A stretch of DNA of 53,829 nucleotides from Candidatus Polarisedimenticolia bacterium (GTDB lineage: Bacteria > Acidobacteriota > Polarisedimenticolia > Gp22-AA2), in assembly GCA_036001465.1 (NCBI GenBank), contig DASYUH010000033.1:1-53829 (forward strand), given 5' to 3'. This document shows, piece after piece, positions 20,838 to 23,340 of this stretch (position 1 is its first letter; each line of letters starts with the position of its first letter). The translations under genes and the position numbers were made by a program. Below the pieces are notes generated by a model, which made no database searches, had not been told where the DNA came from, and saw only the letters and a program-made list of their open reading frames with translations.

Positions 20838-20852
20838 ACGCCCGTTCAGTCG

Positions 20853-20887
20853 TTGACAGGTTCCCTGGATCGTCGTACGTTCCAGGG
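20853..20887 (+). promoter_or_regulatory. Promoter with overlapping palindrome before the lysyl-oxidase gene
   Basis: -35 TTGACA (20853-20858), 17-nt spacer, -10 TACGTT (20876-20881). A perfect inverted repeat CCCTGGA (20863-20869) / TCCAGGG (20881-20887) spans the spacer and start region, the position expected for a repressor site. The gene also has GAGGAG before its ATG. Confidence 0.65.
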
Positions 20888-20933
20888 CATCGCCGCATTC
20901 CTGCGCCGTCGCGCGCCCTCGAGGAGTGTTCCC

Positions 20934-21809
20934 ATGCCCGCTCAACGTCGTTGTTCTGTTCGGGACATCCATCGCCTGCTTTTCGCCGCCGTCGTGATTG
21001 GCGCCACGGTCCTGGCCGCGGCTGCCGCTCTGGCCCAGAACTGCACCCCGCAGAACACCTGCACCGATCCGCGCGGCTGCCCCGACTTCCGCGTCGATCC
21101 CGGGGCGCTGCTGTACGTCCTCACCTTGGGGAATACTGCCATCGACAAGCGCACTTACGCACCGACCGACTGCTCGGTCGTCGAGGGGGAGGTCCCGGCC
21201 GGCACCAACGACTTCCTCTTGTTCAGCACCGCGATTACCAACTTCGGCCCGGGTGCGTTGACTCTCGGAAACCCTGCCGACCATCCGGAATGGTTCGACC
21301 TGGTCACCTGTCACGGGCATCCGCACATCAAGGAATACGCCGACTACCGACTCTGGACCGCCGACGGCTACAACCAGTGGATCGCCCTGCGCGCCGCCAA
21401 TCCAGGGGCGTGCGCCCAGGACCTGCTCGACGCCAACCCGGCGATCGCGGCCCAGATGATCAAGGGGGGGAAGCGCGGATTCTGTCTCTACGACGTCCTG
21501 GCGCACAACGACCTGAGCACGGTGTCGAGAACCTGCACCGCCCCGCTCGACCCGCAGACTTATCTCGACTGCAATAACTCGGGCCTCAGTGTCTGCTGGC
21601 TGGACATCTACGAGCCGATACCCGGCATCGACGGCCAGTCGCTTCCCATCACCGATCTTCCGAACGGGAACTATGTCCTCGAGAACGAGGCGAACGCGCG
21701 CCACTTCTTCACGGAGACCGAGTACATCAACAACTCCGCGGCGGTCAGTTTCCGTTTGCACCAGGGCAAGATCGCCAAGAAACCGAAGCCTGCGATCCTG
21801 ACGCCCTAG
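20934..21809 (+). CDS. Secreted lysyl oxidase-like copper amine oxidase
   Basis: Predicted copper/quinone enzyme that oxidises primary amines such as lysine side chains. 291 aa with a signal peptide (hydrophobic 15-33, cleavage near ALAQ). The copper motif CHGHPH at 126-131 corresponds to the human LOX motif CHQHYH with its three His ligands, followed by EYADYRLW. Lys180 in GGKRGFCLYD and Tyr226 in SVCWLDIY align with human Lys320 and Tyr355, which form the LTQ cofactor. The C-terminal ITDLPNGNYVLENEAN and ETEYINN also match LOX. Eight Cys outside the signal region suggest disulfides and an exported protein. GC and codon use are like the neighbours. Substrate is unknown. Confidence 0.85.
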   Translation: MPAQRRCSVRDIHRLLFAAVVIGATVLAAAAALAQNCTPQNTCTDPRGCPDFRVDPGALLYVLTLGNTAIDKRTYAPTDCSVVEGEVPAGTNDFLLFSTAITNFGPGALTLGNPADHPEWFDLVTCHGHPHIKEYADYRLWTADGYNQWIALRAANPGACAQDLLDANPAIAAQMIKGGKRGFCLYDVLAHNDLSTVSRTCTAPLDPQTYLDCNNSGLSVCWLDIYEPIPGIDGQSLPITDLPNGNYVLENEANARHFFTETEYINNSAAVSFRLHQGKIAKKPKPAILTP

Positions 21810-21826
21810 GCCTCGGACACTCTCCT

Positions 21827-21853
21827 GGGCCCCGGGCGACCACGAGGGGGCCC
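21827..21853. terminator. Hairpin between convergent genes
   Basis: GGGCCCC (21827-21833) and GGGGCCC (21847-21853) form a 7-bp GC-only stem between the lysyl-oxidase stop and the barrel-protein stop. No T-run follows on either side, so it is a weak intrinsic-terminator candidate that could act in both directions. Confidence 0.4.
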
Positions 21854-21861
21854 GGACGGTC

Positions 21862-23007
21862 CTAGTGCCTGATCTCCTGTTGCGTCGGCTCGAACCCGAG
21901 GCTCGAGACCGCGGGGGCGGCCGTGCCGCCGAAACGGTAGGAGTAGCCGGCCACCACGACGTAATCGGGGAAGGTCGCGTCGCCGGCGTTGCCGCTGTAA
22001 GGGTTCGGCAGCCGGTTGCGGAGAAGACCAATCGGCACGTTCACCGAATAGCTCGAGCGGCCGTGCGTGTACACGATGCCGGGCTCGACATAGGTCTCGT
22101 AGCCGGGGCGTCTCCAGCCATGGCTGGCGCCGACCAGGTCGTAGCGCGGCACGCCTTCGATCCGGAAGCCGATCGACACGGTCAGGGTCTCCTTGATGAC
22201 GGGGAAGGAGGCCCCGGCCCGCGCCAGATACTGGTCGGGAACGGAGTTGTCGAGCAGGTCGGCGAAGGCCGGGTTGGCTCCCAGTCCGAGCCCGACGATG
22301 ATCGATGGCGTGCCGTTGGTGTCGCGCGGGTTCGCCAGGTAGAAGCCCGAGCCGTAGAACGACACGTGCTTGAGGCTCTTGTAGGCCTGCGTCTCGAAGA
22401 TGATTCCCCAGCCGCCGTCCCCGGGTTGAATCGACTGGTCCACGGCCTTGAGGGTGTCGTTCGTGGCGGTGATGTCGGGATACTCGTCCTTGGCATCGTG
22501 CTCGCCGGTGGGGGCCTTGATTCCGAGCGCGACGGACCAGTTGCCGCGCGGGTGCCTGACCGGATCGAGCAGCCAGTAGCGCGCCTGCGCGCTGACATCG
22601 CCGAGGCCGCCGGCATTCTGCTCGCGGCGCGGGCCGAGCGTCCCCATGGCCGGCGTCGGCAGCGACCAGGTCGCATTGACCACCGGGATCAGGCCGGAGA
22701 CGGTGAAGCGCCGGGTGACGTTGTACGAGGCGCCCAGGTCGTAGATCTGCTGTGTGTTGGACACATAGTTGTTGGCCGACTGGCGCTGGTACTGGAACTT
22801 GGTCCCGTTGTAATGGTCGGTCGATTTCGCGCCGCGGTAGTTGAAGAAGAACTGCCATTCACCCGGCGCGAACACCACCTGATCCGCGGCGCCGAACACC
22901 GGTTCGTTGTTTCTGATGGCAATGCACCCCTGCGCGCTGGCCGTCCGCGCCGTCAGCAGCGCCGCCGACGCCAGCGCCAGGACGGCCGCGATTCGTATCG
23001 TTCGCAT
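21862..23007 (-). CDS. Outer-membrane beta-barrel protein candidate
   Basis: 381 aa with a clear signal peptide (hydrophobic 5-20, cleavage near ASAQ). The mature part consists of alternating hydrophobic/polar strands rich in Tyr, Trp and Gly (for example GEWQFFFNYRG, LGASYNVTRRFTVSGLIPV, VSAQARYWLL, HVSFYGSGFYLANP, YVVVAGYSYRFGG), as in transporter-like barrels of the MetA/phenol-degradation type. The protein does not end in the usual Phe; it ends EPTQQEIRH after a last strand. Function not assigned. It is convergent with the lysyl-oxidase gene; no link between them is shown. Confidence 0.72.
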   Translation of the reverse strand: MRTIRIAAVLALASAALLTARTASAQGCIAIRNNEPVFGAADQVVFAPGEWQFFFNYRGAKSTDHYNGTKFQYQRQSANNYVSNTQQIYDLGASYNVTRRFTVSGLIPVVNATWSLPTPAMGTLGPRREQNAGGLGDVSAQARYWLLDPVRHPRGNWSVALGIKAPTGEHDAKDEYPDITATNDTLKAVDQSIQPGDGGWGIIFETQAYKSLKHVSFYGSGFYLANPRDTNGTPSIIVGLGLGANPAFADLLDNSVPDQYLARAGASFPVIKETLTVSIGFRIEGVPRYDLVGASHGWRRPGYETYVEPGIVYTHGRSSYSVNVPIGLLRNRLPNPYSGNAGDATFPDYVVVAGYSYRFGGTAAPAVSSLGFEPTQQEIRH

Positions 23008-23309
23008 GAAAGGCTCCCGGGACGTCGTCCCTGTTCGTTAGTTCGCTTGCGTCGCTTCGACCGCCCGGACGGCGGTCGTTTCGCGAGGTGTCGGGGAGTG
23101 CAAGGCTCGGGCCAGGATCCCTCTCGCCGGTGCGGCGGGGCGCAGCAGCCGCGAGGCAATCAGCCGCAAACCACTGATGTGCCAAGGTGTCCAGCGATGT
23201 CGAGGGAGCCCGTCCGAGGGAAGCCGGCGGGCGATGGGCGGGCGCCTCGCATCATTTTTATGTGGCGCCCGGCGGGGGAGTCGTAACGGCTATGGGAAGC
23301 AGGTCCCCA
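23008..23309. other. Gene-free intergenic region with two strong palindromes
   Basis: No supported gene. A perfect 8-bp stem CGACCGCC/GGCGGTCG (23058-23065, 23071-23078) lies in the presumed 5' leader of the barrel protein. A second perfect 8-bp stem CGGGCGCC/GGCGCCCG (23239-23246, 23264-23271) encloses an AT-rich loop; it is downstream of coaE and may end that transcript. No clear promoter for the barrel gene was found. Confidence 0.5.
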
Positions 23310-23340
23310 GGAGCCGGTCGAATACTCGGCCAGGCTCCTA
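23310..23340 (-). repeat. 3'-end repeat, copy 2 (after coaE)
   Basis: Minus-strand copy starting with the coaE stop TAG. This copy folds best: GGAGCC pairs with GGCTCC, then GGCCGA with TCGACC (one mismatch) around a GTAT loop. Confidence 0.8.

Follow-up and report, generated by a model that had tools for sequence, protein, structure and literature searches.

A lysyl oxidase gene between panC and coaE

The window, the whole 53,829-nucleotide stretch of DNA that was analysed, carries a gene of the lysyl oxidase (LOX) family together with an oppositely oriented neighbor between panC and coaE. The features of this locus are as follows.

20838..23337, no strand: panC-coaE segment holding the LOX gene plus a convergent barrel-like gene, absent at the same junction in five relatives
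20921..20926, plus strand: GAGGAG, likely ribosome-binding site, 7 nt 5' of the ATG
20934..21809, plus strand: lysyl oxidase (PF01186) gene, 291 aa, ATG to TAG, from the ORF and from Pfam and LOXL2 matches
20934..21035, plus strand: likely signal peptide, residues 1-34, cleavage between ALA and Q, deduced from hydrophobicity
21060..21086, plus strand: CTDPRGCPD, N-terminal motif, residues 43-51, kept across the LOX subfamily in alignments
21309..21326, plus strand: CHGHPH copper motif, residues 126-131 (His127, His129, His131), aligned with CHRHYH of LOXL2
21378..21467, plus strand: extra stretch of about 30 residues (WIALRAANP...AQMIKG) from the copper motif to the Lys, from alignments
21471..21473, plus strand: Lys180 codon, position of the lysine of lysine tyrosylquinone (LTQ), from LOXL2 alignments
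21609..21611, plus strand: Tyr226 codon, position of the LTQ tyrosine, from LOXL2 alignments
21636..21653, plus strand: QSLPIT at residues 235-240, replacing Q[WF]xDxT with loss of the W/F and D, from alignments
21862-23007, minus strand: exported-looking gene that reads like an outer-membrane barrel

The GC content of the LOX ORF at the three codon positions is 0.60, 0.47 and 0.84 in a window of 68.5% GC, which is typical for a genuine gene. The residues that the original prediction had placed in this ORF were found where it put them: CHGHPH at 126-131, Lys180 in GGKRGFCLYD and Tyr226 in CWLDIY. The signal peptide that it proposed also agrees with the sequence, since the N-terminus contains the hydrophobic stretch LLFAAVVIGATVLAA (mean Kyte-Doolittle value 2.6) followed by ALA and then Q, a pattern that fits a signal peptide as predicted from hydrophobicity. 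The mature protein has ten cysteines, an even number that fits an oxidising, exported location.

The gene order in the window is panB-panC-LOX, with the LOX gene starting 96 nt after panC, and panC and coaE are 2.5 kb apart. In contrast, panC is followed by convergent coaE and folD within 0-0.3 kb in five relatives (G001, G003, G004, G005 and G006). Because the 2.5-kb segment is absent from their panC-coaE junction, which is itself conserved, the LOX gene is classed as accessory, and five absences against one presence favor a gain in the lineage of the window over loss elsewhere. No conserved neighborhood of the LOX gene was found, and the LOX gene of G006 has other neighbors. The product of the barrel-like gene has no Pfam match; G003 and G006 have copies with 69% identity, in both cases on a different contig from panC. 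Flanking repeats were considered as marks of a mobile insertion and set aside, as there were no more than short, imperfect repeats that resemble chance matches.

Family membership and active-site residues

In animals, lysyl oxidase is a copper enzyme that cross-links collagen, and a lysine and a tyrosine of the enzyme form the LTQ cofactor. We take Lys180 to correspond to Lys653 of LOXL2 and Lys320 of LOX, and Tyr226 to Tyr689 of LOXL2 and Tyr355 of LOX.

The ORF matched PF01186 with an E-value of 2.9e-10 and 40.6 bits against a Pfam gathering cut-off of 20.4, and with 32.5 bits in the whole-genome search. Because the Pfam alignment starts at residue 163, the Lys and Tyr fall within it and the His motif does not. 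A profile built from the window LOX and five relatives, with no animal sequence among them, found human LOXL2 (PDB 5ZE3) with an E-value of 1e-18, and its alignment placed CHdHyH on CHRHYH of LOXL2 and the Lys and Tyr on the Lys and Tyr of LOXL2. The profile thus sets CHGHPH on the copper motif of LOXL2, Lys180 on Lys653 and Tyr226 on Tyr689. A single-sequence phmmer search of the PDB found LOXL2 weakly (E 0.1), and hand-counting along this alignment put Lys180 on chain residue 336, which is Lys653, and Tyr226 on residue 372, which is Tyr689. The further match that had been claimed also holds, as ITDLPNGNYVLE of the window protein corresponds to ITDVPPGDYLFQ. WIDIT of LOX resembles WLDIY of the window protein, which raised the possibility that the Tyr355 position was misaligned; this was dismissed because relatives with QWIDVT retain DIY upstream of it, and the counterpart of DGQSLPITDLPNGNY is DCQWVDITDVPPGDY. 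On these sequence comparisons the protein is a member of the PF01186 lysyl oxidases and not a chance match.

Bacterial LOX proteins with conserved copper and LTQ residues were reported in 2015 in five clades (Grau-Bove et al., PMC4448552), and bacterial LOX generally lack the extra first His of the animal signature WEWHSCHQHYH (PMC4448552). The window protein reads DLVTCHGHPH and likewise lacks the extra His before the triad, which makes it bacterial-type and not animal-type. It shares with the proteins of that survey the conserved catalytic residues and a simple architecture with or without a signal peptide, but Acidobacteria are not among the five bacterial clades named there (PMC4448552). 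A literature search for 'lysyl oxidase' with 'Acidobacteria' found no paper, although such papers may exist.

A subfamily with a divergent member in the window

Three PF01186 genes are present in the genome (4.58 Mb, 114 contigs), one each on C33 (the contig of the window), C50 and C114. Contig C114 also carries, about 12 kb from one of the LOX paralogs, a gene for a PEGA-collagen-glycine-rich protein (L021:1183-2241). As an observation that would speak against it, the original prediction had named close relatives without the His triad. The five full-length close relatives (41-53% identity) include the two same-genome paralogs and a protein from an archaeal metagenome-assembled genome (MAG), and every one of them keeps the three His, the Lys and the Tyr. 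The nearest full-length relative is that of the Acidobacteria MAG CR_Sed_300A_bin.1 (G006, the same as L018), with 53-57% identity (57% over 243 columns), and a LOX fragment from G004, located at the end of a contig, is also close. Tree support for the grouping of the window LOX with G006 and G004 is modest (85/88), and the deeper branching order is unsafe because of long branches. The G002 protein is identical to L019.

All members of the subfamily have C-x-DP-x-GCP near the mature N-terminus, and the extra stretch of about 30 residues is present in the subfamily but absent from LOXL2 and from the Gemmatirosa-type LOX. The copy in the window departs from its relatives at two sites. It alone has QSLPIT, where the relatives have QWIDVT, QWLDIT, QWIDIT or QFVDVT, and the residue before the third His is Pro in its CHGHPH but Tyr or Phe in the close relatives (CHGHYH, CHDHYH, CHGHFH). 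At the codon level these are plain substitutions, with no frameshift. The G006 protein shares the subfamily motifs but keeps CHGHYH and QWIDVT, and its gene neighborhood differs. The QSLPIT departure could affect folding or activity.

In the phylum sample the LOX family is rare: matches occurred in 7 of 297 genomes, and within the own family in 4 of 8. A first scan of the genome contigs with the single LOX protein as query gave no match. Spread by viruses or plasmids was considered and rejected, as no relative was found among viral contigs and phages, and one distant relative (25.7% identity) was on a Gemmatirosa replicon. A LOX of the same subfamily lies at L020:5875-6657 in a groundwater MAG titled Euryarchaeota, with a gene in its vicinity that by eye reads like ribosomal protein L24e; the presence of this LOX in an archaeal MAG suggests transfer between bacteria and archaea. 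In another family of the phylum, G108 encodes two LOX-like proteins (L009 and L011) that lack the CHxHxH motif; aligned by eye, they retain DKPIICTID where the Lys is expected and GWxDDY where the Tyr is expected, and they are LOX-fold proteins that have no copper site.

Structure model and comparison with known enzymes

The AlphaFold2 model of the window protein was built from four sequences and is weak (mean pLDDT 59.7, pTM 0.62); pLDDT is under 50 for residues 180-182 and 184-233 and about 30-40 around Lys180 and Tyr226. A second model of the mature protein, without the signal peptide, was likewise low in this stretch. A Foldseek search with the low-confidence model returned 5ze3 (E 5.1e-7) as the sole entry with E below 0.001, and comparison of this model with 5ze3 gave Z 12.8 over 185 residues at an rmsd of 3.8, whereas the next fold match, an unrelated CARDB domain, had Z 6.7. 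As modelled, the protein has the LOX fold. Because Lys and Tyr are 16.6 A apart in the Zn-bound LOXL2 precursor (PMC9659206, PMC9180022), their distance in a predicted precursor is no test of LTQ formation, and a long Lys180-Tyr226 distance, which the original prediction had named as a refutation, would not be a valid one.

Besides the fold, the protein resembles LOXL2 (PDB 5ZE3) in the His-x-His-x-His motif, the Lys653 and Tyr689 positions and an ITD-PxGxY strand. The two differ in that identity is 23%, LOXL2 has SRCR domains and QWVDIT, and the window protein has QSLPIT and the extra stretch before the Lys. The one biochemically characterised prokaryotic example in the papers found is archaeal: the LOX of Haloterrigena turkmenica (HTU-LOX) became an active amine oxidase of broad specificity when refolded with Cu2+ (PMC6452851). 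By description, it is like the window protein in being prokaryotic and in having the copper His triad and both LTQ residues, and it has a signal peptide, as is predicted for the window protein; it differs in an activity-limiting stretch before the catalytic domain (PMC6452851). In Haloterrigena cells themselves LOX activity was not detected (PMC6452851), and the LOX of prokaryotes may therefore be cryptic.

A probable exported amine oxidase and its alternatives

Taken together, the gene probably encodes an exported Cu/LTQ amine oxidase and is an accessory gene. The enzyme, once exported through its predicted signal peptide, would bind Cu(II) at His127, His129 and His131; Tyr226 would then be oxidised and coupled to Lys180 to give LTQ, and the LTQ enzyme would deaminate primary amines, either small ones or lysines exposed on proteins, giving aldehydes, ammonia and hydrogen peroxide. 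This likely activity is drawn by analogy from the chemistry of animal LOX and the activity of HTU-LOX. The accessory gene lies between panC and coaE in this lineage and stands outside pantothenate synthesis. The original prediction of an active exported amine oxidase stands in its family identity, its conserved copper and LTQ residues and its predicted export signal; the word 'active' goes further and is something that we infer from sequence, and the departure from QWxDxT or QFxDxT had been overlooked. Points against the amine oxidase reading are QSLPIT in place of Q[WF]xDxT, Pro in CHGHPH, the poorly modelled active-site stretch and the lack of LOX activity in Haloterrigena cells.

The main alternative, which we regard as unlikely yet serious, is a LOX-fold paralog that has lost all or much of its activity and is drifting in QWxDxT. 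The same-genome paralogs keep QWIDVT and QWLDIT and only the window copy has QSLPIT, and the two G108 proteins without the His motif show that catalytically altered members exist. However, at 53% identity to the nearest full-length relative the protein still has the His triad, the Lys, the Tyr, most of the cysteines and an unbroken frame, which is not the expected outcome of free drift. A role in supplying beta-alanine from polyamines to pantothenate synthesis, prompted by the panB-panC-LOX order, the 96-nt spacing and the lack of a PF02261 (PanD) match in the genome, is largely refuted and hardly credible: PanD is missing from 8 of 8 genomes of the family, including four without a LOX match, and so is missing with or without LOX. 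In addition, panC is followed by coaE and not LOX in five relatives, the LOX gene of the nearest relative G006 is elsewhere in its genome, and the window protein looks exported. It is also improbable, if less so, that the protein is a matrix enzyme that cross-links a collagen-like protein of the organism itself, as animal LOX does with collagen. The one Pfam collagen match in the genome is the exported-looking PEGA-collagen-glycine-rich protein, which has several Gly-X-Lys triplets, and collagen matches occurred in 6 of 7 LOX-bearing genomes, compared with 129 among all 297 (Fisher test, one-sided: p 0.028, rising to 0.063 if only collagen matches over the cut-off are counted). On the other hand, a single family contributes four of the seven LOX genomes, and the test thus overstates their independence; in the phylum sample, 123 genomes with a collagen match have none for LOX; and the LOX and collagen genes are on separate contigs in G004 and G006, as are the window LOX gene and the collagen gene. 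The association is suggestive and weakly supported. A broader version, in which the subfamily of Acidobacteria and archaea with the CxDPxGCP N-terminus and the extra stretch matures its own collagen-like surface protein as a prokaryotic LOX-collagen pair, is a long shot, and less probable still.

In the preferred reading as an exported amine oxidase, the protein is one more bacterial LOX of a kind described since 2015, ordinary for its family and not a new type of system. New in this analysis are the loss of W/F and D in Q[WF]xDxT, the placement between panC and coaE, and the rarity of the family in the phylum. With its three divergent LOX genes and one collagen-like protein, the genome would be a sensible choice for studying the role of bacterial LOX, and it also suits the question of whether LTQ formation needs QWxDxT.

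PF02261 matches were present in 0 of 8 own-family genomes, while in a sample of 60 they were found for 42 of the other relatives; since PanD is missing while panC is present in most genomes of the family, beta-alanine is probably made by another route. In G236, the LOX protein L007/L010 (C101:29525-30790) lies in a 672-codon frame with about 200 residues of repeats (YDPASGTFFLKNSN...) within the LOX domain, and these repeats separate the copper motif from the LTQ lysine.
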